Assembly: GCA_903891095.1 (NCBI GenBank)
Contig: CAITDI010000001.1
Coordinates: 1 to 32,432 of the forward strand
DNA length: 32,432 nucleotides
Origin: an uncultured bacterium
GTDB taxonomy: Bacteria; Planctomycetota; Phycisphaerae; Phycisphaerales; SM1A02
Direction: 5' to 3'
The notes beneath the pieces were generated by a model. The model worked only from the letters and a program-made list of their open reading frames with translations, made no database searches and was not told where the DNA came from. Numbering within the stretch: position 1 is the first letter of the stretch; every line of letters starts with the position of its first letter. The position numbers and the translations under genes are program-made. This document shows, piece by piece, positions 14,651 through 29,397 of the stretch.

Positions 14651-15354
14651 CGCTTGCCTCGCGATGCGGTGCGGGCGGCTGCGGGAAGAAGCGATGAAAG
14701 CATGGAAGCGAGTCCTTCGGCGAAGGCCTGGTCGGGCGAGATGCGTGAGAAGGTTGCGGCGAGGCGGCGGGTCTCGGGGAACTCCGCGGCGTCGAGCGCC
14801 TTGACCTCGGCGAGCGATGCGGGCTGCAGCGTCGCGTCGCTCGCGCGCCAGCGGCCTGCGGTGAATCCGCCGATTTCCCACAGCAGATACCCGCGCACGA
14901 AGCTCAGGAACACGCGCTGCGAGCGGATCGCGCGCTGGTCGCTGAGCCCCGCGTCGAGGAACGCCTGCAGCGCGATCTCGGTCGGACGCACGGCCGCGCG
15001 CATGTCGAGCGGCGCGAGCACGACCAGCGGAAACACCGCGGGATGCGCGTGCGCCGCCTCGCGCAGGTCGGTCGCGAGCCGCTGCAGCCGCTTGAGCGGC
15101 GGAAGCGTGCGCGGCGGGATGTCGATCGACTCCATGACATGCGCGGCCATGAGGCCGAGCAGGACTTCCTTGCTCGGGACGTGCGAGTAGAGCGACATCG
15201 CCTCGACGCCAAGCGCGCCGGCGAGCGCGCGCATGGAGAGCGCGTCGGTGCCGTGCGCGTTCGCGATGCCGACGGCCGCGCGGACGACGCGCGCTTGATC
15301 GAGCGTCGCGCGTGCGGGCTTTCGCGAGGAGCTGCTTGCGGTCGTGCGCGGCAT
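14647..15354 (-). CDS. TetR-family repressor of the efflux locus
   Basis: A 235-residue transcription regulator. The N-terminal helix-turn-helix is ALSMRALAGALGVEAMSLYSHVPSKEVLLGLMA (about residues 40-72), which is canonical TetR. The C-terminal ligand domain (PLKRLQRLATDLREAAHAHP and the WEIGGFTAGRWR segment) fits the TetR_C group found on efflux regulators. The start at 15354 is chosen because the putative -10 sits directly upstream; the ATG at 15390 would fall inside the promoter and operator. If that promoter is real, the message would be leaderless or nearly so. The stop overlaps the start of the outer-membrane factor gene. It most likely represses both divergent transcripts and is released by a pump substrate. 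Confidence 0.93.
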   Translation of the reverse strand: MPRTTASSSSRKPARATLDQARVVRAAVGIANAHGTDALSMRALAGALGVEAMSLYSHVPSKEVLLGLMAAHVMESIDIPPRTLPPLKRLQRLATDLREAAHAHPAVFPLVVLAPLDMRAAVRPTEIALQAFLDAGLSDQRAIRSQRVFLSFVRGYLLWEIGGFTAGRWRASDATLQPASLAEVKALDAAEFPETRRLAATFSRISPDQAFAEGLASMLSSLLPAAARTASRGKR

Positions 15355-15390
15355 CGCGTACAAACTAACCTTACGCTGTAAGGTCGGCAA
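15336..15390. promoter_or_regulatory. Divergent promoter region of tetR and the RND permease
   Basis: Minus strand: TTGCCG (15385-15390), a 17-base spacer, then TAGTTT (15362-15367); initiation would fall at or next to the tetR ATG at 15354. Plus strand: TTGCGG (15336-15341), a 17-base spacer, then TACAAA (15359-15364); initiation would be near 15371, inside the palindrome. Each hexamer matches the sigma-70 consensus at only three to four positions. The exact 17-base spacing on both strands is what makes the pair credible. Confidence 0.5.
15368..15384. promoter_or_regulatory. TetR operator, perfect 17-bp palindrome
   Basis: The sequence accttac-gct-gtaaggt is a perfect 7-bp inverted repeat around a 3-base centre. 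It lies between tetR and the divergent permease gene. It fills the spacer of the putative tetR promoter exactly and covers the expected start site of the permease promoter, so one bound dimer could silence both. The GTAAGGT half-site type is common for TetR/AcrR regulators. Confidence 0.85.
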
Positions 15391-15428
15391 GGCTGCCGTC
15401 GCTTTCGCGGCAAAGTTCGAGCATCGCC

Positions 15429-18400
15429 ATGTGGATCGTCCGCCTCGCCCTTCGACGCCCGTACACCTTCGTGGTCGCCGCGATGGTGGTCGCGCTGCTC
15501 GGCATCGTGTCGATCCTCCGCATGCCGACCGACATCTTTCCCGAGGTCGACATCCCCGTCGTGAGCGTGATCTGGTCGTACGGCGGCATCTCGCCCGAGG
15601 AGATGGAGCGCCGCATGACGATGATCAGCGAGCGCGCGATGACCACGACGGTCAACGGCATCGAGCACATCGAGAGCACCTCGCTGTCGGGCGCGGCGGT
15701 GATCCGCGTGTATTTCCAGCCGGGCACGAAGATCGAGGCCGCCGTCGCGCAGATCACGGCGATCAACCAGACGCTGCTGCGCATCATGCCGCCGGGCACG
15801 ACGCCGCCGTTCGTGATCCGCTACTCGGCGAGCAACGTGCCGATCCTGCAGATGGCGCTCAAGAGCGACACGCTGGGCGAGCAGGCGGTGTACGACCTCG
15901 GGCTCAACTTCATCCGCACGCGGCTCGCGACGGTGCAGGGCGCGCAGGTCCCGCTGCCGATCGGTGGGAAGCCGCGGCAGGTGATGGTCGATCTCGATCC
16001 CGAGCTGCTGACCGCGCGCGGGATTTCGCCGGCGGACGTGAGCCTCGCGCTCAACGCGCAGAATGTGATCCTCCCCGCGGGCAACGCGCGCTTTGGGCAG
16101 ACCGAGTACACGGTGCGCCCGAACAGCAGCCCCGACGCGGTCGACGACCTCAACGACCTGCCGATCAAGAAGGTCGGCGACACGACGATCTACCTGCGCG
16201 ATGTCGCGCAGGTGCGCGACGGTTTCGCCACGCAGACGAGCATGGTGCATGTCGACGGCGCGCGCAGCGCGCTGCTCACGGTGCTCAAGTCGACCGGCTC
16301 CTCGACGCTCGAGATCGTGCAGCGCGTGAAGGACGCGCTGCCGCCGATCCTCGCGACGCTGCCGGCCAAGGTCGATGTCACGCCGCTCGTGGACCAGTCG
16401 GTGTTCGTGCGCGCCGCGGTCGAGGGCGTGGCCAACGAAGCGGTGCTCGCGGCGGTGCTCACGGGACTCGTGATCCTGCTCTTTCTCGGCTCGTGGCGCT
16501 CGACGCTGGTGATCGCGATCAGCATCCCGTTGTCGATGCTGGTGTCGGTGATCTGCCTCTGGTCGCTCGGGCAGACGCTCAACACGATGACGCTCGGCGG
16601 CCTCGGCCTCGCGGTCGGCATCCTGGTCGACGACGCGACGGTCGAGATCGAGAACATCCACCGCAACATGGGCATGCGCAAGCCGCTGCTGCAGGCGATC
16701 CTCGATGGCGCGCAGCAGATCGCGGTGCCGGCGTTCGTCGCGACGCTATGCATCTGCATCGTGTTCGTGCCGGTGTTCTTCATCAGCGGCGCGGCGAAGT
16801 TTCTCTTCGTGCCGCTGGCGATGGCGGTCGTGTTTGCGATGCTCGCGAGCTACGTGCTGAGCCGCACGCTGGTGCCGACGCTTGCGCGCTACCTGCTTGC
16901 GCCGGAAGCCGCGATCTACGCGCACGGCGGACACGAGGACGGACACGAGGGCGGCAGCGGGGGCGGACACGAGGGCGGCAGCGGGGGCGGCAGCGGGGTG
17001 GTGTGGGCGGTTCACCGCTGGTTCAACCGCGGCTTCGAGCGGCTCGCGGCGTGGCATGCGCAGGCGACGGACTGGGTGCTCGACAACCGCAAGGCGACGG
17101 TCGCGGGTTTCGCGCTGATCGTGGCGCTTGCGGTGGGTGCGGGTTGGTTCGTCGGGCAGGACTTCTTTCCGAGCGTGGATACGGGGCAGATGCGTCTGCA
17201 TGTGCGCTGCGCGCCGGGCACGCGCATCGAGGAGACCGAGCAGCGATTTTCCGATGTGCAGCAGGCGATTCGCGAGATCATTCCGCCGGGCGAATTGCAG
17301 CTGATCCTCGATTCGATTGGCCAGCCGTCGGGCGGCGTCAACCTCGCGTTCAGCGATTCGGCGACGGTCGGTTCCTTCGACGGCGAGCTCATCGTGAGCC
17401 TCACGCCCGAGCGCACGCGCACGGCCAACGAATACTCCGCGCTGCTGCGCGAGAAGCTGCCCGAGCGGTTTCCCGACCTCGAGTTCTTCTTCCAGCCCGC
17501 GGACATCGTGAGCCAGATCCTCAACTTTGGCCTCGCGGCGCCGATCGATGTGCAGGTGACGGGTCCGTCGCGGCCCGACAATCTGCGCATCGCGCGCGAG
17601 ATCGCGGCGCGCTGCGAGAAGATCCCCGGCGCCGCCGACGTGCATCTCCACCAGGTGCCGTTCGCGCCCGAGATGCGCGTGAACGTCGACCGCACGCGCG
17701 CGCTTGACCTCGGCATGACGCAGCGCGATGTCGCGACGAGCATGCTCACCTCGCTCAGCGGAACCGCGCAGGCGGCGCCGAACTACTGGCTCAATCCCAA
17801 GAACGGCGTGAACTACTCGGTGGTCGTGCAGACGCCGACCGGCCGCATCGAGAGCCTCGACGACCTGCAGGCGACGCCGTTGCGCGGCACGGCGGGTAGC
17901 GGATCGAGCGGCAACGCCGACGGCACCGCGCAGCAATTGCAAAATGTGGCGAGCGTCGAGCGCACGCAGTCGCCCGCGGCGATCAGCCACTACAACGTGC
18001 AGCCGGTCAACGACGTGCTCGTGTCGGCCGCAGGCGCGGATCTCGCGTCGGTCGGCGGGCGCGTGCAGGCGATCGTCGCCGAGATGCAGAAGGACGCGCC
18101 GAAGGGCACGACCATCGTCATGCGCGGCCAGTACGACTCGATGCGCTCGAGCTTCATCGGCCTCGCGATCGGCCTCGGCGCGGCGATCCTTCTGGTGTAC
18201 TTCCTGATGGTGGTCAACTTCCAGAGCTGGCTCGATCCGTTCATCATCATCTTCGCGGTGCCGGGCGCGCTGGCGGGCGTGGTGTTCATGCTCAGCTGCA
18301 CGCAGACCACGTTCAATGTGCCGTCGCTGATGGGCGCGATCATGTGCGTGGGCGTCGCGACTTCGAACTCGATCCTGGTGGTGACCTTCGCGAACGATTG

Positions 18401-18680
18401 CCGCCGCGAGGGCCTTGATGCGCGCGCCGCTGCGTACCGCGCGGCGACCACGCGACTGCGGCCTGTGCTCATGACCGCGTCGGCGATGGTGATCGGCATG
18501 GTGCCGATGGCGCTCGGCGTTGGCGAAGGCGGCGAGCAGAACGCGCCGCTCGGCCGTGCGGTGATCGGCGGGCTCGTGGTGGCGACCGTCGTCACGCTGC
18601 TCGTGGTGCCCGTGATCTACGCAATGCTGCGCCGCACGGCGCCGCGCGACTACAGCGTGCTTGAAGAAGTTTCCGCGTGA
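15429..18680 (+). CDS. RND-family efflux permease
   Basis: A 1083-residue inner-membrane proton-driven exporter of the HAE-1/AcrB class. TM1 is at about 11-31, followed by MPTDIFPEVDIPVVSVIWSY. TM4 holds the proton-relay acids in GILVDDATVEIENIHRN. The second half has GQDFFPSVDTGQMRLHVR and, in TM10, MCVGVATSNSILVVTFAND. The Lys that AcrB carries in TM10 (SKNAIL) is replaced by Ser here, as in a sub-branch of these pumps. The cytoplasmic loop between TM6 and TM7 (about residues 497-530) holds a His/Gly-rich stretch (HGGHEDGHEGG and following) encoded by a tandem DNA repeat. The start at 15429 (MWIVRLALRRPYTFV) is the family start. The adaptor gene follows 36 bases downstream. Confidence 0.95.
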   Translation: MWIVRLALRRPYTFVVAAMVVALLGIVSILRMPTDIFPEVDIPVVSVIWSYGGISPEEMERRMTMISERAMTTTVNGIEHIESTSLSGAAVIRVYFQPGTKIEAAVAQITAINQTLLRIMPPGTTPPFVIRYSASNVPILQMALKSDTLGEQAVYDLGLNFIRTRLATVQGAQVPLPIGGKPRQVMVDLDPELLTARGISPADVSLALNAQNVILPAGNARFGQTEYTVRPNSSPDAVDDLNDLPIKKVGDTTIYLRDVAQVRDGFATQTSMVHVDGARSALLTVLKSTGSSTLEIVQRVKDALPPILATLPAKVDVTPLVDQSVFVRAAVEGVANEAVLAAVLTGLVILLFLGSWRSTLVIAISIPLSMLVSVICLWSLGQTLNTMTLGGLGLAVGILVDDATVEIENIHRNMGMRKPLLQAILDGAQQIAVPAFVATLCICIVFVPVFFISGAAKFLFVPLAMAVVFAMLASYVLSRTLVPTLARYLLAPEAAIYAHGGHEDGHEGGSGGGHEGGSGGGSGVVWAVHRWFNRGFERLAAWHAQATDWVLDNRKATVAGFALIVALAVGAGWFVGQDFFPSVDTGQMRLHVRCAPGTRIEETEQRFSDVQQAIREIIPPGELQLILDSIGQPSGGVNLAFSDSATVGSFDGELIVSLTPERTRTANEYSALLREKLPERFPDLEFFFQPADIVSQILNFGLAAPIDVQVTGPSRPDNLRIAREIAARCEKIPGAADVHLHQVPFAPEMRVNVDRTRALDLGMTQRDVATSMLTSLSGTAQAAPNYWLNPKNGVNYSVVVQTPTGRIESLDDLQATPLRGTAGSGSSGNADGTAQQLQNVASVERTQSPAAISHYNVQPVNDVLVSAAGADLASVGGRVQAIVAEMQKDAPKGTTIVMRGQYDSMRSSFIGLAIGLGAAILLVYFLMVVNFQSWLDPFIIIFAVPGALAGVVFMLSCTQTTFNVPSLMGAIMCVGVATSNSILVVTFANDCRREGLDARAAAYRAATTRLRPVLMTASAMVIGMVPMALGVGEGGEQNAPLGRAVIGGLVVATVVTLLVVPVIYAMLRRTAPRDYSVLEEVSA
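16927..16998 (+). repeat. In-frame tandem repeat coding a His/Gly-rich loop
   Basis: A 24-bp unit coding GHEGGSGG occurs at about 16942-16989 in two nearly perfect copies, preceded by a degenerate copy (GGHEDGHE) and followed by GGSG. All units keep the reading frame. The segment lies in the cytoplasmic loop between TM6 and TM7 of the RND permease. Confidence 0.8.
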
Positions 18681-18716
18681 CGATGTTTCCACCGTTTGCC
18701 TGAGGCTTTGATCCAC

Positions 18717-19952
18717 ATGACGCAGCACGAAACCGAGACGACTCCGAATCATCCGCGCAGCAAGGCCGTTCCGTTCGTGCTGGTCGCGGCGGTCGCGGGC
18801 ATTGCGGCGGTTGTCCTGTTTGCGGGCATCATTCCCGCGCTGCGCCGCAGCAAGGCGCTGGCCGAGGAGACCGCGGCGCGCGGCGCGGCGATGCAGAAGG
18901 TCGTCTTCGTCGAGGCCACGGCCGCGCCCGCGACGGCACGCGTGTCGCTGCCCGCGCGGTTGGCGGCGCAGCAGGAAACGGCGCTCTTCGCGCAGACGGG
19001 CGGCTATCTCGGCGCGATGCAGGTCGATGTCGGCGACGCGGTCAAGGCGGGGCAGTTGCTCGTCGAGATCGCGACGCCCGTGCTTGACCGCGAGATCGAG
19101 CAGAGCGCCGCAGCAATGAAGGTCGCGCAGGCGAAGATCGAGCTCGCGCAGGCGAAGCTCGAGCTCGCGCACGCGAGCCTCGAGCGCCTTCGCCGCGTGG
19201 GCGACGCGCGCGCGGTGAGCCAGCAGACGCTCGACGAGGCCGCGGCCAACGAGAAGAGCGACGCCGCCACGCTCGCCGCCGCGCGCGCCGACCTCGCGTC
19301 GGTCGAGGCGGCGGGGCGCAGGCTGGAGGCGCAGAAGTCGCTCGCGCGCATCGTCGCGCCGTTCGACGGCGAGATCACCGCGCGCGGCTTCGACGCGGGC
19401 GCGCTGATCGTGGCCGACCGCATCGATGTTGCGCGGCCGATCTTCCGCGTGACGAATCGCGATGAGATCCGCGCGTTTGTCGATGTTCCGCAGTCGTTCG
19501 CCGCGTCGATCGCGGCGGGGCAGTCCATCGACCTCACGGTGCGCGAGCTCGCGGGGCGGCACTTCGAGGCGAAGATCGTGCGTGCCGCGCCCGAGCTCGA
19601 CCGCACCACGCGCACGCGCTTGGTCGAGGCGCGCATCGCGAACGCGGATCACGCGCTGCTGCCGGGAATGTTCGCGGAGGCCGCGGTCCAGAGCGTGCGC
19701 GCGGCGGGCACGACGATGGTTCCCGGCGAGGCGATCCTCATTCGCGACGGCAAGCAGGCGCTCGCGGTGATCGACGCGCAGGACACGCTGCACTACATCG
19801 TCGTCACGCTCGGGCGCGACAACGGCGCGCAGGTCGAGGTGCTCGGCGGCGCCGCGAGCGGCGTGCCCGTGGGCGCGCGTCTCGCGGTCGGACTCTCGCG
19901 GCAGCCTGCGGATGGCGCGAAAGTCGCGCCGGTTGCGCGCGCGACGAAGTGA
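18717..19952 (+). CDS. RND efflux periplasmic adaptor (membrane-fusion protein)
   Basis: A 411-residue adaptor linking the permease to the outer-membrane channel. A single N-terminal membrane anchor (FVLVAAVAGIAAVVLFAGII, about 20-39) is followed by the lipoyl half-motif GGYLGAMQVDVGDAVKAGQLL. A helical hairpin follows, rich in KVAQAKIELAQAKLELAHAS repeats, then RIVAPFDGEITARGFDAGALI, the second lipoyl half, and beta-barrel segments (RVTNRDEIRAFVDVPQSFA). The ATG at 18717 follows GAGG and keeps a short charged N-terminus; a TTG at 18696 would add seven residues. The stop is 10 bases from the stop of the convergent secreted-protein gene. Confidence 0.93.
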   Translation: MTQHETETTPNHPRSKAVPFVLVAAVAGIAAVVLFAGIIPALRRSKALAEETAARGAAMQKVVFVEATAAPATARVSLPARLAAQQETALFAQTGGYLGAMQVDVGDAVKAGQLLVEIATPVLDREIEQSAAAMKVAQAKIELAQAKLELAHASLERLRRVGDARAVSQQTLDEAAANEKSDAATLAAARADLASVEAAGRRLEAQKSLARIVAPFDGEITARGFDAGALIVADRIDVARPIFRVTNRDEIRAFVDVPQSFAASIAAGQSIDLTVRELAGRHFEAKIVRAAPELDRTTRTRLVEARIANADHALLPGMFAEAAVQSVRAAGTTMVPGEAILIRDGKQALAVIDAQDTLHYIVVTLGRDNGAQVEVLGGAASGVPVGARLAVGLSRQPADGAKVAPVARATK

Positions 19953-19961
19953 TGGCTCGGG

Positions 19962-20714
19962 CTACTTCGCGGCCGGCGCTGCTGCCGTCGTCGTGCCCGG
20001 CGCGAAGTTCGTGTCCAGGTCAGGCTTGGTCGTCCAGCGGCGCTTGGCGTCGGGCTTCTCGATCTTTTTGCGGAAGAGCACCGTGTTGTCGAGGTCGAGA
20101 TCGCCCGACCAGATCCACTTCGCGCCCTTGAAGTCGTGCTCGAAGAACGGCTGCTTGGGGTCGATCCGCTCCTGCGTGTACTCGGTGGCGTTGTCCCACT
20201 TGGAGTCGTCGAAGTCGACGGCGAACCAGTTCTCGGGGAGCGGCTCGCTGCGCACCTTGGGGTTCGCGGTGTCGCGGTCGATCGGGCCGTGGAAGATGCA
20301 CTTGGCCTTCCACGACGCGTCGGTCACGGTGCCGTCGGCGAACTTGAGCACGATGCCGCCGTCGCCGATCGAGCGACCGTACTCGCAGCCGGTCTTGGGA
20401 TCGGCGTTGTCCTTGGCGATCACGGCGATCGTCATCGGATACTCGGGCAGGATGTCGAGCGACACGACGTTGTGCGGGAGGAAGTCGATCGAATCGACGG
20501 CGATCAGCTTGCCGTTGATGTACATCGCGAACCAGTTGTCGGCGTAGACGCTGCCGTGGATGGTGTCGCTCATCGCGGGCTTGACGATGCCACCTTGGCC
20601 GTCCTGCGGCGGCTTGCGGCGGCGGGGCTGCTGCTGGTCCTGGCGCGGCTGCTGCTGTGCGGCGATGGCGAGGATGCAGAGCGGAACGGCGATGAAGGGG
20701 AGGAGGCGTGGCAT
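19962..20714 (-). CDS. Secreted jelly-roll-like protein of unknown function
   Basis: A 250-residue exported protein. The signal peptide MPRLLPFIAVPLCILAIAAQ is followed by a Gln/Arg/Pro-rich linker (QQQPRQDQQQPRRRKPP). The globular part starts at about 50 with YADNWFAMYINGKLIAVDS, which resembles the carbohydrate-binding jelly-roll folds of glycosidases (N-W-x-x-Y-x-N-G). Near the end comes GAKWIWSGDLDLDNTVLFRKKI, a W-I-W...FRK pattern seen in rhamnosidase-type N-terminal domains. Two cysteines (CEYGR and CIFHG) may form a disulphide. No catalytic domain is attached. It is on the same strand as the giant YHYH/phosphoesterase gene but 343 bases away, so co-transcription is possible, not proven. 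A role in ligand binding is inferred from the fold only. Confidence 0.7.
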   Translation of the reverse strand: MPRLLPFIAVPLCILAIAAQQQPRQDQQQPRRRKPPQDGQGGIVKPAMSDTIHGSVYADNWFAMYINGKLIAVDSIDFLPHNVVSLDILPEYPMTIAVIAKDNADPKTGCEYGRSIGDGGIVLKFADGTVTDASWKAKCIFHGPIDRDTANPKVRSEPLPENWFAVDFDDSKWDNATEYTQERIDPKQPFFEHDFKGAKWIWSGDLDLDNTVLFRKKIEKPDAKRRWTTKPDLDTNFAPGTTTAAAPAAK

Positions 20715-21057: not shown

Positions 21058-24000
21058 TCACTTGATCTCGTACGAGTCGACGATCGTGCCGTTCTTATCG
21101 CGGGCGTTGCCGTCGAGCGCGGATCGCACGAACTCGATCTTCGCTGCGCCGTCGGCGCCGAGCTTGACGCGGAGATACCCAGGGCTTCCGAGGATCGTCC
21201 CCGACGCGTAGCCGTACTCCTCGGCGCTGCGCGTTCCGCCTGCTGCGTTGCCAGGCTGCGGCACGCACTGGTACACGACGCCGTCCTTGGACGAGTGCAC
21301 ATACAGGTGATCATGCCCGTGGAACACCGCTGAAACGCCGTGTTTCACCAGCAACTGGTGGATCGGCATCGGCCAGCCCGGACGATGCTCGGCGAAACCA
21401 TCGCTGCCGTCGGCGTTCTTGCCGCCCCACTCAAAGAACGGCGCGCTCTCCACGCCACCGCGCGCGGCGGGGCCGCCGATGCCGCCGACGAGGTGATGGA
21501 TGAACACGAACTTGCGCTTGGCCTTGGACTTTGCGAGCGTGTCGGCGAGCCAGTCGTACTGCGCGCGGCCGAGCGTGCGCGACCAGCTCGCGTCTTGCGG
21601 CTCGAGCTGCTTGACATCAGGTCCGCCGCCCGCGCCGCCGCCGCCGCCGCGCATGCGCTCGGTCGCGAACCAGAACGGATCGAGCACGACGCACAGCGCG
21701 TCGCCCCATTCGAACGCGTAGTAGTTCGCGCCGCGGCCGTCCTTCATCGCGGTGGCGCCGGTGAACATCTTGCCGTCGATCACGGGCGCGGGAAATCGCG
21801 CGGTGCGCTGCTTGTACGACCACTCGCCCATGCCTCGGCCCTGTGCTCCATTCTCGTCGCCCTTCTCGCCGTCGTGGTTGCCGAGCACCATGAAGAGCGG
21901 GGCGGTGTCGCACGCGATGCCGAAGTAGTAGCGCTGCGCGTCGTACTGCGGAAGCGCGCGCTCGTAGTCCTGCCCGCGCTTGTCGGTCATGAACGTGTCG
22001 CCGAGGTCGACGAAGAAGTCGGGCTTGTCGGCGCGGACATTGCGGAGCGTCTGCTCGTAGACCTTCGGATCCATGTTCGCGTCGAGATGCGAGTCGGCCT
22101 GGATGTCGAAGGTAAAGGAGCTGCCGCTCGCGCGCGGAAGCTGAAAACGCGCGGTCTCGCCCCACGCGGGCGCCTTGTCGCCGTCGCGCTTGAGGCCGAC
22201 GCGATAGAGGTATTCGCTTGCCGGCTGGAGTTCGGTCAGCTCGATCGTGCCGACGCCGTCGGCTGCGATGGCAACGGGCTTCGACTGCAGCTTGCGCGGT
22301 GCGCGCTCAGTCCAGTACTCGACGGTTGCTTCGGCGGCTTTGGCGAGATCGATCGACAGCGTGATCGAGTTGCTGGTCGGGCGCACGAGGACGACATCGA
22401 TGTCGTGCGCGGGGACCTCGGTGTGGAACGCGGTCATGCGCGCGAGAAGACCGCCGCCGCCACCGCCTCCTCCGCCGCCGCCGCCGCCGCCACCTTGGCC
22501 GCGACCACCTTGGCCACCGCGGCGCCCGCCGCCTTGTCCGCCGCCGCCGCCACCTGCGCCGCCGCCACCACCGCCCTGGCCTCCACCCTGCGCACCACGC
22601 TGTCCGCGCGGCGGGGGAGCGTCATCGCTCGAGCCCTGACGCGCGTAGCGCAGGTCGACGCTCGCGGTGCCGAGCGTGGTCTTCTCGATCGCCTTGAGGA
22701 GCTGGGCGCGCGTGACGCCTTCGCGGCCTGCCTCGAGTTTTGGCGCTTCGGAGAGCGCGTACACCGTCACGGTGTAGACCTTCTCGCCAGGGCCCTTCGA
22801 GCAGGGCGGCGTGTATTCGCTGCGGCGATTGACGGTGTTCACGCCCCAGCTGCCGATGTCGTGCGCGCCTTCCTTGAGCCCCGCCGTCGACGCGGGGATG
22901 CCGAAGACGACCATGTAGACATGCGGCTCCTCGGCGTCGGGCGGAATGTGGTGCATCACCACGGCGATGCTCTTGGTGTCCTTGGGCAGACCCGACCAGT
23001 TGAGCGCGGGCGAAAGGCTCGCGCCGTCGCAGGTGCAGCGCATGTCGAGCAGGCCCTTCGCGTCGAGCGAGGCGCAGTCGAGGTTCATGCCGGGCGTGTT
23101 CGCGAGCTTTGGCGGCGGGGGAGATGCGTTGTCGTCGCGCGGCGGGTTGTCATCGCGTGGCGGCGGCGGGCGATCGCCGCCACCTTGACCCTGACCACCA
23201 CCGCGGCGTCCGCCGCCGCCTCCACCACCGCCACCCTGTCCTTGTCCCTGTCCTTGCCCCTGTCCTTGGCGAGGCGGACGACCCGCGCCGCCGCCCTGAC
23301 CACCGCCACCGCCACCGCCGCGTTCACCGCGCGCGGTGTACGTCTCCTTCGTCACCTTGCCGTCGGCGTCGGTGAACACGAAGTTCGCCTTGCCGTCGGG
23401 CAGGACCTCGTACGCGATCGTGCCCTTCTTCGCGCCGCCGATTTGGTACTCGAGCGACCACGACTTCTCGCCGGTCTGCTTGAAGCCGACGATGCGCGCG
23501 CCGCGCAGCACCTGCAGCGCAGGACGCATCGGATTCGCGTGTGCCTGCGGCACGACTTCGTTCTCGGGGCCGGGGCCGGAGAGCTCGGCCTTGCCGCGCA
23601 GACCGCCGTTGATGTACGGGAACGACTTCGACGCGTGGTAGTGGTACGAGCGCGTGCCGCCGCCGAAACCTTCGCCCTTGGGCAGTTCGCAGAAGTGACC
23701 GTTGAGCTCGTCGAGCTTGTCGTGCGAGCCGCACGGGCACACGCCATCTTCGCCGGCCTTGGCCGCGGGATCGAACAGCCCGTAGATCGGGAAACCGTCG
23801 AGCGCGTACGCGATCGGCTTGCCCTTGCCGACGATCTTGGCGAGCGCGAGCGGTGCGGCGTGGTAGTGGTAGTCGTCGGCGCGTCCGCAGTGGCCGCCGA
23901 ACTCGTCGAGCTCGCCGATCGAGAAGCTGTCGACGCCGCGGTTGTTGAGCGCGTTGAAGATCGGGATGCCGTTGGCCGCGAGCGCGACCGCGCCCTTCAT

Positions 24001-24618
24001 GAGGTTCGACTTGCCGAGGATCGGCTTGTCGGCGAGCTCGGGCTTGAGCGGGATCTGCCAGGCGTTCGCGCCTTCGTACTTCTGCGGGAGCGGGACCTGC
24101 TGCTGCCACGCGGTGATGCCGACCATCATCGTCATCTCGAGCGGCTTGTGCGGCAGGCCGTCGCTCTCGATGTAGAGCCAGCGCTCGTCGGCGCGCGTCT
24201 TCACAAACGGCGCGAAGGCGTCGAAGATCGCGGCTTGCGCGGGCTTGCCGGTTGCGGCCGACTGCGTTGCGGCGGACTGCGGCGCGGCGTTGTCCTTCGC
24301 GGCCGCTTGTTCGACGCGCGATTCGTTGAACGCGCGGATCGCGGCGATGCGCTGCTCGGCCTCGCTGCGATCGGGCGCGGCCAGGTCGTCGAGCGCGATG
24401 GTCGCGAGTTCGCCCGACGCCGTCGCGATCGCGACCTTGCCCGAGCGCGCGAAGAGGAACGAGCCGTCGACGACTTCGCCCGTGCGCGCGTTGGTCCACG
24501 CACGGGAGGAGGCCGCGTTGAACTCGTCGGGCGGATGCGCGTGCGCGTGCGCGGTTGCGGCGGCGACGACGACGGCAAGACTGTGTGCGGCGAACGCGCG
24601 GATGGTGTGGAGTTTCAT
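21058..24618 (-). CDS. Giant secreted SHD1-YHYH-PEBP-Fn3-metallophosphoesterase fusion
   Basis: A 1186-residue exported protein, start MKLHTIRAF at 24618, signal peptide to about 27. Domains in order: SHD1-like (about 35-90, [20 protein letters not shown]); YHYH domain (about 215-365) with YHYH at 250-253 and again at 325-328, plus several Cys; Gly/Gln-rich linker (432-482); YbhB/PEBP domain (510-660, [15 protein letters not shown], then [21 protein letters not shown]); poly-Gly linker (670-723); Fn3-like purple-acid-phosphatase N-domain (735-830); metallophosphoesterase (835-1150). The last has DSH (842-844), GDTF (873-876), GNHD (913-916), HH (1041-1042) and HGHDH (1100-1104), the full dinuclear-metal set, so it should be a phosphatase or phosphodiesterase. 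YHYH has no settled function. It is 37 bases from the sulfatase gene in the same operon. Domain calls are firm for YHYH, PEBP and phosphoesterase, tentative for SHD1. Confidence 0.87.
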
Positions 24619-24655: not shown

Positions 24656-26299
24656 TCAGTTGTTGTTGCCGTTGCCGTTCTTGCCGCCGCCGCCGCCGCC
24701 ACCGCCGCGCTTCTTGCCGTTGGGCTTCTTGGGCTGGTTGTCGTCGGGCGGCGTGGTGTCGGCAGGCTTGCTGTCGGTCGCGGACTTGCCGCCTTCAGGC
24801 GATGGCGACGGCGCAGGCGCGGGCGTCGGCATCTGCGCGTTGACGGCCTTGAGGTACGCGTCGAGCTTCGCCTCGAGTTCCTTCACGCGCTCGGGCATCG
24901 ACGCGGCGAGATCGTTCGACTCGCCGGGATCCTTGCGAATGTCGTACAGCTTGACGGTCTTGGTGTCGTAGTTGCGCACGAGCTTGTGATCGCCGAGGTA
25001 GATCGCCGACGCAGGCCCGCCGTTGTTGAGGTCGTAGTGGGGGAAGTGGATCACGATCTCCTCGTGGGAGCGCGCGATCGCGCCTTCGCCGGTCTTCGAC
25101 TTGAGCACGGGCACGAGGCTGCCGCCTTCGACCGCGGTGCGCGCGTCGGGATTCTCAGGCTTCGCGAGCGGCGCGCCCGCGAGATCGCGCATCGTTGGCA
25201 GGAGATCCATGCCGGTCGCGCGAACACGGCTGATGGCGTTGGCCGAAATGCCAGGGCCGATCACGATGAACGGCACGCGGATGCCGCCTTCGCTCACGCT
25301 GCCCTTGGCGCCAGCGAAGGGAGGATTTGCGGCGCGCGCGTTGCGTCCGCCGCCGCCACCGCCCGCGCCGCCGCCACCGCCACCACCACCACCACCGCCA
25401 CCACCTTGCGCGCCATGATCGGCGCTGAAGAAGATGTACGTGTTGTCCGCGACGCCCATCTCGGCGAGCGCTGCGCGCACTCGGCCGATCTGCACATCGA
25501 CCGTGTGCTGGCCAGCGATCGCGCCCATCGGCTTGCCGCTCACGCCGGGGACGAGCGACTTCGCGAGCGCGAGCGACTCGGGCGTCGCTTCTTCTTCGCT
25601 GCCGAAGCCGTAGTGGGACATCTGCACGAAGAACGGCTTGCCCGCCTTGATCTGCGCGCGCATGAACGCGATGCCCTTGTCGGTGATCATCGCGGCCTGC
25701 TCGGGATTGGGCGTGCCGTCGTGGTCGGGACCCTGGTTCGAGTTCGGGCCATCGGAGTCGTCGAAGCCGTTCGCCTTGGGGTCGTAGCGGCCGACATGCC
25801 ACTTGCCGTAGTGCGCGGTGCCGTAGCCGAGTTCGCGCAGCACATCGCCCGTGGTCGTGACGCCCGCGGGAATCACCGTGTCTGGCGTCGGCGCGACCAT
25901 CTTGAGCAGCTGGTACTGCGAGCCGTTGCCTTGCTCGCGGCGGTTTGCGCCGCCCTCGTTCTGGTAGGTCATGTGCAGCTTCGCGGGCGAAATGCCCGTC
26001 ACGAAGCTCGCGCGCGACGGCGTACAGCGCGGGCACGACGCGTAGAAGTCGCTCAAGCGCATGCCCTCGGCGGCCATCTTCTCGAGATTGGGCGTGAGGC
26101 CCGCGGGGCGCGCGTGCGACGGCGGCTGGCCGTCCATGTCGACGGAGGTGCTCGACCATCCCGTCGCCTCGGCTTGGATGAAGACGAAGTTCGGCTGCTT
26201 CTTCGCGGGCGTTTCGGCCTTCTTGGCGGGCGCGGCGGTCTGCGCAGGCGTTGCAGACTGAAGAAGCAGGAGGGCGATGGTGAGCAGTGCGCGGATCAT
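24656..26299 (-). CDS. Secreted formylglycine-type sulfatase with poly-Gly insertion
   Basis: A 547-residue exported sulfatase. The signal peptide is [21 protein letters not shown]. The active-site signature [11 protein letters not shown] puts Cys92 in place for conversion to formylglycine. YGKWHVG (Lys166, His168) and the Asp294-His295 pair in FFSADHGAQ are the later catalytic and metal positions. The first metal-binding pair, normally two Asp in an ADDxGW segment, reads AEATGW here (Glu44, Ala45). Right after SADHGAQ there is a run of about 19 Gly (299-318, one Ala), and the C-terminus is a Pro/Ser/Thr/Lys-rich tail ending in Gly and Asn. It should cut sulfate esters from polysaccharides outside the cytoplasm, if the altered metal site still works. 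Spacing of 21 bases to the regulator gene upstream and 37 bases to the fusion gene downstream indicates one operon. Confidence 0.9.
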
Positions 26300-26320: not shown

Positions 26321-27310
26321 TCAGCGTTCGCGGATCACTTGCCGCTCGGGCTCGTGATGGAAGTCGTGGGTGAAGAACGCCGCCTCGAGCGGCGAATTGC
26401 CGACAAGTTCGAGCTCGACCGAGCGCGGGCCGCCCTGCGCCTGGGGGAGATTCTCGAGGAGCATGCGGTGGATCTCGGCGGTCTTGGTGTCGTAGGTGAT
26501 CGTGATGCGCTTTGGTCCGCCGCGCGCGTCTGCCTTGCGCACGGCCTCGAGGATCGACTCGCCGCTGCGGACGAGCGGCACGCGCATCGCGAGGTCGTAG
26601 GACTTGGCGAGTTCGGCGAGCCCGTCGCGCGGGTCGAGGAACGACACGTTGCGCTGGCTTCCCGGCAACGCGCCGCGGAATCGCAGCGGATCCGAGCTCA
26701 CGCGCACCGCGCCGCGATTGGGAACGATCCACGCGGTGGCGCCGTCGCTGCCGGTGACGACGCGCGCGCCGGTTTCATCGGTGCGAATGAGCACGTAGCT
26801 GTTTGCGCCGCGAACGAAGAACTGCGCGCCGTCGATCGCGGAGGGGGTGGGTGCAGACTTGTCGTGGGAAATAGCGTGGATCACGTAGCTGCGATCACGG
26901 CTTCGATCGCGGCTGGGCGCGCCGACCTGCTCCAGCGCGCGGCTCGCCGCGACGACGCGCGCGAGCTCGCTCTCGGCCGCAACCGCGGTGGACGCGGGAA
27001 TGCCGAACCAGATCGCGAGCGTCGCCGCAAGGAGGATCGTGGCCGCGAGGAGCACGCGGCGCGTGCGGTGGATCCAGATCACGCGGCGCGCGGCGCTGCG
27101 CCCAGTGGCGACGACGACACTGAACTCGCGCTCGATCGCGTCATGCAGCATCGCGGCGCGCGCGAATTCGCGCGCGCGCGCGGGATCGGCGGCGATCGCG
27201 GCGTTGAAGCGCGCGCGGGCGAATTCGTCGAGAGTGTCGTCGAGCGCGCCGTGCAGGAGCGCGTGCCAGTCGGCGTCGCGCGACGAATCGTGTTGCGTCG
27301 AGTCGGTCAC
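26321..27310 (-). CDS. Membrane-anchored anti-sigma-like regulator with LolA/RseB-like outer domain
   Basis: A 329-residue single-pass protein from a GTG at 27310 overlapping the sigma stop (GTGA). The N-terminal 65 residues (LLHGALDDTLDEFARARFNAAIAADPARAREFARAAMLHDAIE) match the cytoplasmic helical part of planctomycete anti-sigma/FecR-like regulators, without a zinc-binding HxxxCxxC. One TM helix lies at about 86-106 (VLLAATILLAATLAIWFGI). The extracytoplasmic part (about 115-329) has strand patterns like FFVRGANSYVLIRTDETG and GATAWIVPNRGAVRVSSDP. These recall LolA/RseB-type folds, which bind lipid, but I am not certain. It probably binds and inhibits the sigma factor until the outer domain senses an envelope or substrate signal. 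Confidence 0.7.
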   Translation of the reverse strand: MTDSTQHDSSRDADWHALLHGALDDTLDEFARARFNAAIAADPARAREFARAAMLHDAIEREFSVVVATGRSAARRVIWIHRTRRVLLAATILLAATLAIWFGIPASTAVAAESELARVVAASRALEQVGAPSRDRSRDRSYVIHAISHDKSAPTPSAIDGAQFFVRGANSYVLIRTDETGARVVTGSDGATAWIVPNRGAVRVSSDPLRFRGALPGSQRNVSFLDPRDGLAELAKSYDLAMRVPLVRSGESILEAVRKADARGGPKRITITYDTKTAEIHRMLLENLPQAQGGPRSVELELVGNSPLEAAFFTHDFHHEPERQVIRER

Positions 27311-27831
27311 GCGCCGCCCTCCGCGGCCACGCGTTGCTCGATGCACGCACGCAGCTGCTCGCGCATGCGCTGCAGCGACTTGGCGGCGGTGTTGGGCTGG
27401 ATGCCGAGGATTTCCGCGATGCGCGCCGGCCTGAGCCCGCGGCGATAGCGGAGTTCGCAGATCTCGCGCGTCTGTCCCTCGAGCTTGGCGATGCAGTCGG
27501 CGAGGTGCGCCATGCGCGCGCGCTCGACCTCGGCGACCTCGGCGATCGCGGCGGCCAGCGCGTCCGCCGCCTCGGGCTGGAGAAGCAAGGGACGCCTGCT
27601 CCTTCGGCGCACCGAGTCGGCGGCAACGCGTTGGGCGATCCCCATCACCCAAGGCAGGAACGGCCGCGATGGGTCGTAGCCGTCGTACGACTCCAGCACC
27701 GCCATCGCGACCTCCTGCATGCAGTCATCGCGCTCGGCCCCCGAGCCGACGAGTGCATGCAGAAACGCCGAGACCGCAGGCTGGGCCTGGGTCCATTGGG
27801 CAAACGCGCGGCGGGTCGATTCGTCCATCAC
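27307..27831 (-). CDS. ECF RNA polymerase sigma factor
   Basis: A 174-residue sigma-70-family factor of the extracytoplasmic-function class. Region 2 runs from about 18 to 75: DDCMQEVAMAVLESYDGYDP then RPFLPWVMGIAQRVAADSVRRRSRR, the usual DNA-melting and -10 recognition helices. Region 4 (about 115-165) holds LEGQTREICELRYRRGLRPARIAEILGIQPNTAAKSLQRMREQL, the -35-binding helix-turn-helix. There is no region 3. The pattern fits the planctomycete and verrucomicrobial sigma factors that sit beside FecR-like regulators. The gene directly precedes and overlaps its presumed regulator, and the sulfatase and fusion genes follow, so these are the likely targets. A promoter it recognises cannot be read with confidence. 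Confidence 0.93.
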   Translation of the reverse strand: MMDESTRRAFAQWTQAQPAVSAFLHALVGSGAERDDCMQEVAMAVLESYDGYDPSRPFLPWVMGIAQRVAADSVRRRSRRPLLLQPEAADALAAAIAEVAEVERARMAHLADCIAKLEGQTREICELRYRRGLRPARIAEILGIQPNTAAKSLQRMREQLRACIEQRVAAEGGA

Positions 27832-27915: not shown

Positions 27916-28560
27916 TCACTTCGCGCGCTTGAGCGTCATGTCGATCACGACCGGCTTGGTGACGGCCTTCGTCAAAGCACCGTCGCCCTCGCCTTGCTTG
28001 ACGGGCTTGGACTCGATGCGCATGGCGAGCGTATCGGCGTCCTTGAGCGAGTAGGTCACGCTGGCGAGGTCGCCCGCGTTGGCCTTGGCCGCATCGTCGA
28101 CGGGCACGAAGACCGCGACATTGTCCTTGGCCGACGAAAGACGAAGGTTCATCGCCTCCTTGCGGCGCGGGTCGGCCTCGAAGTTGCCGTGGACGTGCAT
28201 CTGGCGGAGGAGCACGTCGCCGTTGGCGCCGACCACGACCTGCGTGAACTCGAAGAACGCGGGCGTGCCGTCGGGGCGCGTCTGGCGGAAGCTGCCGAGC
28301 ATCGACTTGCCGCGCGCGGGCATCCAGAGTTCCTCGCTGACCATGCCGTTGGGGAGCTCGGTGACCCAGTGGCCCGCGATGAAGGCGAGCGGCGCGAGTT
28401 CGGCGGCCGTCGGGGCGGGGGTGCGCGCAGCGGGCTTGGTCGCGGGCGCCGGAGCCGCGGCGGGCGCAGCAGCCGGAGTTGCGGCGGGCGCTGGCGGGTC
28501 GGCGGGAGCGTTGAGCGAAAGGGCGGCGGCGGCGATGGTCGTGAGCATGAAGTCGAACAT
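27916..28560 (-). CDS. Exported DUF6265-family protein
   Basis: A 214-residue protein. The first residues MFDFMLTTIAAAALSLNAPA form a short signal peptide, followed by an Ala/Pro-rich linker. The core starts at LAPLAFIAGHWVTELPNGMVSEELWMPARGKSMLGSFRQTRPDG, the W-G-x-x-E-W..P.G.s.lG..R pattern of DUF6265, a lipocalin-like beta-barrel family of unknown function. The rest (DVLLRQMHVHGNFEADPRRKE) continues that pattern. The same frame stays open upstream to 29250, but that is antisense to the DUF2071 gene and is rejected; the ATG at 28560 gives the signal peptide. It is 84 bases upstream of the sigma gene on the same strand and may or may not belong to its transcript. Confidence 0.8.
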   Translation of the reverse strand: MFDFMLTTIAAAALSLNAPADPPAPAATPAAAPAAAPAPATKPAARTPAPTAAELAPLAFIAGHWVTELPNGMVSEELWMPARGKSMLGSFRQTRPDGTPAFFEFTQVVVGANGDVLLRQMHVHGNFEADPRRKEAMNLRLSSAKDNVAVFVPVDDAAKANAGDLASVTYSLKDADTLAMRIESKPVKQGEGDGALTKAVTKPVVIDMTLKRAK

Positions 28561-28617: not shown

Positions 28618-29397
28618 ATGCAGTACTTCGCGCCGCACCCCGCGCTGCCCACGCCCGGAACGCCCAGCCAACGCCCGTGGCCAGAGCCCGCGCGCGCGTG
28701 GTCGGTCACGATGGCGTGGGAGGACCTCGTGTTCCTGCACTGGCGCGTCGACGCGCAGGCGCTCGCCGCGCACATCCCGCCGGGGCTCGAGCTCGAGACC
28801 TTCGATGGCAGCGCGTGGCTCGCGGTCGTGCCGTTTCGCATGGCGCGCACGCGGTTTCGCTGGATGCCGCCGGTGCCGACGACGCATGCGTTTCCGGAGC
28901 TCAACGTGCGCACCTATGTTCGCGCGCAAACGCGCGGGGGCGCGGTGCGGCCGGGCGTGTGGTTCTTCAGTCTCGATGCGGTGAGCAGGCTTGCGGTGGA
29001 AGGCGCGCGCGTGACGTTCGGATTGCCGTACTTCGCGGCGCGCATGCGCTGCGCGTCGCGCGACGGACGCACGACCTACGCAAGCGAGCGCGTCGATCGG
29101 CGCGGTCCTGCCGCGCGATTTGAGGCGAGCTGGCGCGTCGCGGGCGAGCACGCGCGCGCGGTGCCTGGCACGCTCGAGCACTGGCTCGTCGAGCGCTACT
29201 GCCTGTACGCGCTGCGGCGCGGGCGGCTCGTGTGCGGCGAGGTCGCGCACAAGCCGTGGGAGGTCGCGCCGGTGGATCTGCGCATCGAGGCGTGCGAGAT
29301 GACGCGCCTTGTTGATTGCGAGACGCGCGGCGCGCCCGCGTCGGCGCTCGCGGCGCGTGCGGTGGAAGTCGCCGCGTGGTCGCCTGTGGCGGTGTGA
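28618..29397 (+). CDS. DUF2071 (YqjF-like) protein
   Basis: A 259-residue cytoplasmic protein of the DUF2071/YqjF family. Characteristic stretches are WEDLVFLHWRVDAQALAAHIPPGLELETFDG, AWLAVVPFRMARTR, FPELNVRTYVR, GVWFFSLDAVSRLAVEGAR and LVERYCLYALRRGRLVCGEVAHKPW. No enzymatic activity is established for this family. The ATG at 28618 fits the family start (an alternative lies at 28711); the open frame upstream of it is antisense to the divergent DUF6265 gene. The divergent spacing is only 57 bases. Confidence 0.9.
   Translation: MQYFAPHPALPTPGTPSQRPWPEPARAWSVTMAWEDLVFLHWRVDAQALAAHIPPGLELETFDGSAWLAVVPFRMARTRFRWMPPVPTTHAFPELNVRTYVRAQTRGGAVRPGVWFFSLDAVSRLAVEGARVTFGLPYFAARMRCASRDGRTTYASERVDRRGPAARFEASWRVAGEHARAVPGTLEHWLVERYCLYALRRGRLVCGEVAHKPWEVAPVDLRIEACEMTRLVDCETRGAPASALAARAVEVAAWSPVAV

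Follow-up and report, generated by a model that had tools for sequence, protein, structure and literature searches.

The window analysed here is a stretch of 32,432 nucleotides from an uncultured planctomycete. Its minus strand carries a fusion gene (21058..24618) whose 1186-aa product joins SHD1-like, YHYH, beta-tail, PEBP, Fn3-like and metallophosphoesterase (MPE) parts. Among the relatives compared, the sequences show a core made of a YHYH domain with two His triads, a beta tail and a specialised PEBP-like domain; an Fn3-MPE unit, a sulfatase of S1 type and a protein resembling CBM67 accompany this core, either within the chain or as neighbouring genes. This architecture is firm; the chemistry is what we infer. 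Our leading reading, to which we give slightly less than an even chance, is that the fusion is one of several joined versions of a modular, exported and lectin-aided system that would strip extracellular glycans of their sulfate and phosphate esters.

The fusion gene forms a single open frame of 1186 codons plus a stop, with its ATG at 24618 and its stop at 21058. A preliminary description made from the sequence alone had reported this continuous frame, which is present, and had given no strand; the frame belongs to the minus strand, and the plus-strand reading of 21058-24618 is interrupted by a stop. A Pfam search over the 1186 aa bears out the claim that three families share one chain, in the order originally given and all above curated cut-offs: YHYH (PF14240; E 3.2e-15, 57 bits against a cut-off of 25, with the better of two stretches at residues 187-282), PBP/PEBP (PF01161; E 6.3e-18, 65.9 bits against a cut-off of 24, residues 524-658) and Metallophos (PF00149; E 3e-10, residues 841-1105). 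The count of five domains in that description is thus secure for these three, while the Fn3-like domain corresponds to a Pur_ac_phosph_N match at residues 744-826 (E 0.0038, 18.2 bits) that falls below its cut-off of 30, and the SHD1-like domain is recognized through relatives. In the window protein itself, SHD1 has no Pfam match at E<=1. A profile made from this part of the window protein together with six relatives aligns to residues 78-151 of relative L087; in that protein Pfam assigns SHD1 to residues 82-140 (24.6 bits, cut-off 23.7), so the label is fair. Searches of NCBIfam return only PEBP and sulfatase names, all of them below cut-off.

Along the chain, the YHYH domain (residues 128-345; 23584..24237, minus strand) contains both of the YHYH motifs noted earlier, at residues 250-253 and 325-328. 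It is followed by a beta-strand tail module at about residues 355-440 (23299..23556, minus strand), which is conserved in relatives and has five predicted strands. The PEBP-like domain occupies about residues 501-665 (22624..23118, minus strand), and the Fn3-like and calcineurin-like phosphoesterase region extends over residues 735-1186 (21061..22416, minus strand). Linkers described as poly-Gly and Gly/Gln are found as Gly/Gln/Arg-rich stretches at residues 428-505 and 660-728. The chain looks exported, as had been proposed, with a signal peptide judged by eye.

Low-complexity linkers of this kind raise the concern that separate genes were joined during assembly. The YHYH/tail/PEBP/Fn3/MPE chain is encoded as one frame in 11 further genomes (G002, G003, G004, G007, G012, G032, G065, G082, G096, G108 and G383), in six of which the SHD1-like part was also detected. 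Since the chain is kept across these genomes while its linkers vary in length, the fusion is neither a product of chance nor an assembly join, and the latter explanation is ruled out.

The fusion gene sits within a tight minus-strand run of five genes. The first encodes an ECF sigma factor (27307..27828; Pfam Sigma70_r2 5.7e-13 and Sigma70_r4_2 5.7e-7), relatives of which occupy the same place in loci L098, L099, L101, L102 and L109. It overlaps by 4 bases with the gene for a 329-aa protein (26321..27310) that has no Pfam match and a single hydrophobic stretch near residues 84-112, predicted to span the membrane. From its position, which is the same in relatives, we infer that this protein is an anti-sigma factor. 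Next is an S1-type sulfatase of 547 aa (24656..26299; Pfam Sulfatase 1.4e-36), whose export was judged by eye and whose gene ends 37 bases before the fusion. The run continues through the fusion to a secreted lectin-like protein of 250 aa (19962..20714) with an N-terminal hydrophobic stretch. This gene order is repeated in L098, L099, L101 and L102. The 3.6-Mb genome that holds the window encodes 11 sulfatases above cut-off, and its sole lectin-like gene, PBP match and Fn3-MPE all reside in this run.

The recurrence of these parts was assessed in the best 80 of at least 557 relatives, which were ranked by likeness to the window and are therefore not a random sample. These loci also appear to overlap with the multi-genome survey, as contigs of identical length occur in both (for example 88066, 455372 and 117484 bases), so the two sets are not independent. 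A partner counted as near if it shared the strand and fell within the retrieved locus, which reaches at most 7 kb to either side. The parts recur in several bacterial phyla. PEBP is within the YHYH chain in 56 of these best 80 loci and elsewhere on the same strand in six. A sulfatase is in the chain in three loci (L134 being doubtful) and elsewhere in the locus in 34; the corresponding counts are 16 and 12 for MPE and 4 and 23 for the lectin-like protein. At least one of these three partners is present in 58 of the 80 loci, and in 37 of the 49 that have at least 3.5 kb on both sides. None of the three was seen in the other 22 of the 80, several of which are not truncated (for example L125, L126, L133, L142, L149 and L168). 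The ECF sigma factor and membrane-spanning anti-sigma-like protein precede the run in the window and in a minority of relatives. A same-strand match to the ECF profile occurs in 12 of the 80 loci, those in L158 and L161 being weak and lying at a distance of roughly 3 kb or greater; L100, L105 and L110 are without the sigma part, and a nearer contig start accounts for this only in L100. The seven Bacteroidota loci have no sulfatase or lectin-like match, and MPE is present in two of them. A Bacteroidota MPE relative bears a secretion-tail domain. Cultured relatives are represented by Arsenicibacter rosenii SM-1 (L167), in which two MPE genes, a YHYH gene and a PEBP gene adjoin one another, and by Adhaeretor mobilis HG15A2 (L156), which has YHYH and the lectin-like gene. 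In L136, L148 and L174, the counted sulfatases are thousands of bases away. The apparently frame-shifted L121 and L076 were kept unaltered, and A4 and A5 hold 24 rows each, taken from the listed rows.

A sulfatase gene is often found beside the YHYH-PEBP core. Planctomycetes are commonly rich in sulfatases, and adjacency of a sulfatase alone is weakened as evidence for this reason. The parts also occur as separate genes or as fusions in differing order. In L112 a sulfatase is joined to the core, in L109 both a sulfatase and the phosphoesterase, and in L107, L111, L146 and L162 the lectin-like domain; one chain among the fusions reads sulfatase-YHYH-PEBP-Fn3-phosphoesterase. On the YHYH tree, these arrangements require at least six changes for MPE, four for the lectin-like part and two for the sulfatase, a count that excludes the in-chain match in L134 as a fragment. 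Such repeated fusion and splitting is evidence that the parts work together.

The same arrangements bear on a simpler explanation, in which the system scavenges phosphate, the phosphoesterase is the sole catalyst, and YHYH and PEBP are metal- or substrate-binding appendages. The intact phosphoesterase ligands, the single chain in the window and its relatives, and the Fn3-like/MPE layout with its sub-threshold match to the purple acid phosphatase N-domain are all consistent with this possibility. However, MPE is in the same chain in 13 of the 56 loci with YHYH and PEBP in one chain, the core is fused elsewhere to a sulfatase or a lectin-like domain, and in the window a sulfatase gene lies directly ahead of the fusion. 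We therefore consider phosphate scavenging of this form unlikely. The related proposal in the preliminary description, that YHYH and PEBP are specific accessory modules of a phosphatase, is likewise not upheld, and the whole multi-part system is the better unit of function.

In such a glycan ester-removing system, the anti-sigma protein, where present, would sense an envelope signal and free the sigma factor, which would switch on the gene run. The lectin-like protein might then dock the system proteins onto an extracellular glycan, from which the sulfatase would take off sulfate esters and the phosphoesterase phosphate mono- or diesters. YHYH may bind metal through His116/His124/His126 and Asp111/Asp147, with a second triad at 181/199/201 that is particular to the class, and might either perform a third hydrolytic step or hold metal for the other enzymes. 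The remade His/Tyr/Lys pocket of the PEBP-like domain could take up a ligand that is anionic or a sugar. Polysaccharide utilisation loci offer a partial parallel, as a sulfatase adjoins a lectin-like protein and some loci include an ECF sigma factor. A conserved backbone-degrading enzyme or glycan transporter would be expected of such a locus; here, no other family occurs in more than six of the 80 loci (BLASTP 1e-8 among locus neighbours). Because no further conserved gene family was found, the likelier product is freed sulfate and phosphate, a form of nutrient scavenging, or an altered surface polymer, with the sugar backbone less probable. No description of the system was found in the literature searched, from a library short of most subscription papers. 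The cluster supplies one YHYH class with recurring partners of known chemistry, and with them a testable context of glycan sulfate and phosphate ester removal. If the reading is correct, an exported nutrient or surface system is added to those of planctomycetes and their relatives.

A changed surface polymer would suit another explanation, in which the system remodels a surface matrix or stalk by altering a sulfated or phosphorylated exopolymer that belongs to the cell itself and does not scavenge nutrients. The ECF and anti-sigma-like genes, the lectin-like partner and the lack of further conserved families all fit, as does a paralogue in the same genome that joins YHYH to Lcl_C and dockerin domains. 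Given the spread of the parts over several phyla with differing envelopes, and with no tie to polymer synthesis genes, we view this alternative as rather improbable.

The best-matching stretch of the window's YHYH domain covers positions 2-110 of the PF14240 profile. In the numbering of the modelled segment, the first His triad (H116/H124/H126) is invariant in all 71 tailed frames and in 23 of 23 classical frames, the latter selected for a DG-x-[PA] motif among the frames of 31 loci. D111 is equally conserved in both sets (71/71 and 23/23). D147 is present in all 71 tailed frames and also in all 23 classical frames, although the motif used to select the latter includes D147. In contrast, the second triad at positions 181, 199 and 201 is retained in 67, 69 and 69 of the 71 tailed frames and is missing in 22 of the 23 classical frames compared, and this triad and the beta tail are particular to the window class. 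For YHYH, a jumbo-phage survey (PMC7824862) predicts a Zn site of three His and one Asp and proposes that the domain is a hydrolase; this prediction is all that the literature searched offers, where YHYH is otherwise a domain of unknown function. The residues shared by the window class and PF14240 members, including phage tail YHYH proteins (H116/H124/H126 and D111), are consistent with that predicted site as the text of PMC7824862 describes it. A metal-handling role for YHYH is plausible.

These residues also invite the suggestion that the domain is a peptidoglycan- or protein-directed hydrolase, as for the tail-associated, metal-dependent hydrolase proposed for phage YHYH. The predicted Zn site and suggested hydrolase (PMC7824862) and the invariance of the His triad in the window class speak for it. 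However, the partners in this system comprise ester hydrolases together with a lectin-like protein, no peptidase or muramidase family recurs among the 80 loci (BLASTP 1e-8), and no close phage relative was found. Specifically, a profile of the tailed class gave 19 pattern matches in viral contigs, none of them a relative, tblastn against phages revealed no relative of this class, and Foldseek against BFVD gave no match at E<=0.001. Such a target is very unlikely in our estimation. A bolder version of the ester-removal reading, which we regard as doubtful, makes YHYH with its two His triads a third metal-dependent hydrolase beside the sulfatase and phosphoesterase, with the remade PEBP domain presenting the anionic glycan, in an undescribed surface machine. 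If true, a chemistry would be assigned to the YHYH family for the first time, and a new PEBP subfamily would be defined.

A model of YHYH plus tail has a pLDDT of 93.5 and places the tail strands at model residues 247-301. Foldseek of this model against the PDB gives a best E of 0.045, and the YHYH profile searched against solved chains reaches a best E of 0.069; the lack of a match does not imply a new fold. The VIA rows for the model mostly concern the tail (residues 243-305).

The PEBP-like domain is recognized by Pfam PF01161 and has 3n08 as its best solved chain, yet its pocket is changed throughout the class. We take the DPDxP, WVHW and GxHxY motifs to hold the canonical PEBP pocket residues. 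In the window class, the WVHW His is replaced by Tyr and the GxHxY His by Lys in 62 of 62 rows (L152 was dropped under a minimum of 110 residues), and the first Asp of DPDxP is replaced in every row as well (His in 61 and Thr in one). Four stand-alone PEBP controls retain all three canonical residues, whereas the window class retains none. This pattern shows a putative PEBP subfamily with a remade pocket that is tied to this cluster.

For the phosphoesterase, the earlier observation that its metal ligands are intact is confirmed in relatives. The calcineurin-like motifs D-x-H, GD, GNH, H and GHxH are kept in 32 of 32 rows, each of at least 300 residues. All metal-ligand motifs are shared with PhoD and purple acid phosphatase-like MPEs, and in the window a Pur_ac_phosph_N-like domain stands in front; the PhoD match is below its cut-off. 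Purple acid phosphatases have a D-x-G first motif and a GDxxY tyrosine, whereas the window MPE has ADSH (D-x-H) and GDTFM and so lacks the purple acid signature.

The closest solved chain to the sulfatase is 9fo1 (4.4e-57), named as a k-carrageenan sulfatase of S1_16. The two share the fold family and the C-x-P-x-R core, which reads CTPSR in the window; the C/S-x-P-x-R formylglycine motif is present in 41 of the 43 listed sulfatase frames. The N-terminal Asp pair of 9fo1, presumably part of the S1 metal site, is replaced by EA in the window, and E-A or E-G stands at this place in 15 of the 37 readable cluster frames, including the window (43 listed). Sulfatase activity is uncertain because of this replacement.

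The lectin-like protein has no Pfam match and 25 relatives at 31-76% identity. Its model resembles the CBM67 and Pleurotus ostreatus lectin folds (Z 10.3 and 9.7, respectively), with 120 aligned residues and an rmsd of 3.3 for CBM67 3w5n in VIA and an E of 7.3e-4 for the Pleurotus lectin 6t1d. Its sequence similarity to CBM67 is not significant, as the profile gives E values of 0.35 (2okx) and 6 (3w5m) against solved chains, no better than the unrelated top match. According to PMC4690510, CBM67 is a calcium-dependent carbohydrate-binding module, described with rhamnose bound. The 250-aa protein and its relatives stand alone or are fused to the YHYH-PEBP core, not to a rhamnosidase.

The fusion was described as a single frame of 1186 codons, and this frame is present on the minus strand, with an ATG at position 24618 and a stop at 21058. 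YHYH, PEBP and Metallophos, all named in the preliminary description, scored above the curated cut-offs in a Pfam search of the window protein. Both YHYH motifs were likewise located, at residues 250-253 and 325-328, as were linkers rich in glycine at 428-505 and 660-728; the signal peptide was assessed by eye. The Fn3-like domain is partly supported by a match to Pur_ac_phosph_N that is sub-threshold in Pfam. The SHD1-like assignment is reasonable: the window protein itself gives no SHD1 match in Pfam, and a profile of its N-terminal domain matches the region of a compared locus (L087) where Pfam calls SHD1 slightly above the cut-off.

Another possibility was that the fusion is an artefact of assembly joins. 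This was ruled out by recurrence, as domain profiles identified one frame carrying YHYH, beta tail, PEBP, Fn3-like and metallophosphoesterase (MPE) domains in further genomes (loci L026, L028, L030-L033, L070-L073 and L088), with linkers of unequal length. A protein search with the fusion gave matches in 32 of 61 genomes, the window's own among the 61, where many weaker matches cover only the glycine-rich linkers. Among 121 genomes of the family, YHYH is found in 65 and PEBP in 45, with both in one frame in 14 (counted from coordinates). The corresponding counts for 294 genomes of the phylum are 46, 61 and 5, two of these five also being in the family survey. On these one-frame counts, most genomes that have YHYH or PEBP lack a fusion of the two.

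By our gene calling and Pfam, the fusion gene lies in a run on the minus strand. An ECF sigma factor gene (27307-27828; Pfam) overlaps by 4 bases with a gene for an anti-sigma-like protein with one membrane span (26321-27310), which is followed after 21 bases by a sulfatase gene (24656-26299), after another 37 bases by the fusion gene (21058-24618), and 343 bases later by a gene for a 250-amino-acid lectin-like protein with no Pfam match (19962-20714). This five-part order is repeated in L098, L099, L101 and L102. The sulfatase, fusion and lectin-like genes occur without the sigma and anti-sigma-like genes in L100, L105 and L110. The contig of L100 starts within the sulfatase gene; for L105 and L110, 3 to 5 kb of upstream sequence contained no match to either of the two absent genes. 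Adjoining the run are genes for a TetR regulator, an outer-membrane efflux protein, an AcrB-type pump and an HlyD-type adaptor (13145-19952), and, next to the sigma factor gene, DUF6265 (27916-28560) and DUF2071 (28618-29397) genes. The window's own genome has 11 sulfatases above the cut-off in 3.6 Mb; therefore, by our own arithmetic and with this genome alone as the baseline, roughly 1% of genes would be expected to have a sulfatase within about 1 kb. Its one lectin-like gene, one Fn3-MPE and one PEBP match all reside in the run.

Searching named genome contigs with an alignment of the YHYH domain and tail yielded at least 557 relatives, of which the best 80 were kept. By record titles, which may be wrong for metagenome-assembled genomes, these 80 loci comprise 52 from Planctomycetota, 11 from Verrucomicrobiota, 7 from Bacteroidota, 2 from Armatimonadota, a single locus apiece from four further phyla, and 4 that are unassigned. 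PEBP shares a chain with YHYH in 56 of the 80 and lies elsewhere on the same strand in 6. Sixteen loci have the MPE in the chain and 12 have it near; the corresponding counts are 3 (L134 doubtful) and 34 for the sulfatase, and 4 and 23 for the lectin-like protein. ECF genes are near in 12 loci, two of them weak and distant (L158 and L161), and on the opposite strand in one more. Of the 80 loci, 58 have a sulfatase, an MPE or a lectin-like protein, or more than one of these (37 of the 49 with at least 3.5 kb on both sides), and none of the three was detected in 22. At a BLASTP threshold of 1e-8, any further family is shared by at most 6 of the 80 loci.

These parts and their linkage are directly observed, and the linkage varies. 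L109 encodes sulfatase, YHYH, PEBP, Fn3-like and MPE domains as a single chain, L112 a YHYH-PEBP-sulfatase chain, and L107, L111, L146 and L162 YHYH-PEBP-lectin chains. A sulfatase-Fn3-MPE chain adjoins an SHD1-YHYH-PEBP chain in L104, and two Bacteroidota loci (L165 and L167) carry two MPEs, YHYH and PEBP as separate neighbouring genes. The YHYH tree (79 rows) requires a minimum of 7 changes for PEBP, 6 for MPE, 4 for lectin and 2 for sulfatase. That one set of parts has been repeatedly fused and split is our main argument for their acting together.

Within the double-triad YHYH class, residues H116, H124, H126, D111 and D147 (numbered within the modelled YHYH-plus-tail segment) are present in 71 of 71 members. 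The three histidines and D111 are kept in all 23 classical frames (other PF14240 frames), as is D147, which is part of the motif by which those frames were chosen. This invariant triad and Asp fit the Zn site of three His and one Asp that a passage of a jumbo-phage survey (PMC7824862) predicts for YHYH. A second triad (H181 in 67, H199 in 69 and H201 in 69 of 71 members) is lacking in 22 of 23 classical frames. The four members that depart from it group in a single clade (support 95). No PEBP was detected in three of them, and the fourth is cut short. The YHYH-plus-tail model, which is confident (pLDDT 93.5), gave no convincing match among solved chains except a half-barrel-like resemblance of the tail. 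Every part is a member of a known family or resembles one, YHYH with a function that is only predicted and a fold that might be new.

Compared with a small control set of four stand-alone survey PEBPs, the 62 aligned cluster PEBPs have a pocket that is coherently remade rather than randomly decayed. The WVHW His is Tyr and the GxHxY His is Lys in 62 of 62; the first Asp of DPDxP is His in 61 and Thr in one, and the second aligns to Asp in only 6.

The phosphoesterase ligands are conserved in 32 of 32 rows, and a Bacteroidota relative has a secretion tail domain. The window sulfatase carries CTPSR, and its nearest chain, one named k-carrageenan sulfatase, has DD where the window protein has EA. 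The N-terminal Asp-pair stretch is readable in 37 of 43 listed sulfatase frames, with E-A or E-G in 15 and DD in 22. Fourteen of the 15 are in loci that also have the phosphoesterase, compared to one of the 22 DD frames (L146). The E-A and E-G sequences form a sulfatase subfamily whose chemistry may be altered. The lectin-like model (pLDDT 85) resembles a Pleurotus lectin (E 7.3e-4) and the CBM67 of a rhamnosidase (Z 10.3), and a sequence search against the same proteins gave no significant match (E 0.35 to 6). A passage of PMC4690510 describes CBM67 as a carbohydrate-binding module that depends on calcium and has rhamnose bound.

As to its activity and substrate, whether it is exported and the order in which its parts act, we tentatively favour a system that would be exported, stand in the window under the ECF sigma factor, dock onto extracellular glycans and strip sulfate and phosphate esters from them. 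YHYH would be a third, metal-binding component and PEBP a ligand-binding one. Because no further conserved family was found, the product is more likely to be the ester groups, or a changed polymer, than the sugar backbone. The closest known kind is the exported sulfatase/phosphatase gene run, of which the fusion system would be a variant. The searched literature yielded no description of this combination of parts, of a YHYH class with two triads or of a PEBP class with the His/Tyr/Lys pocket.

Other YHYH arrangements were also observed. The window's own genome encodes a paralogue (L005:4667-7162, contig C19) whose domains are SHD1-like, YHYH, Lcl_C in two stretches, and dockerin; a sulfatase gene (L005:2343-3824) lies about 840 bases away on the same strand, with an opposite-strand gene between. 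YHYH is joined to sulfatase via EF-hand-like stretches, without PEBP, in L081, L082 and L092. YHYH-Fn3-MPE chains without PEBP occur in L090/L115 and L091/L113, and an EF-hand stretch occupies the expected place of PEBP in L090.
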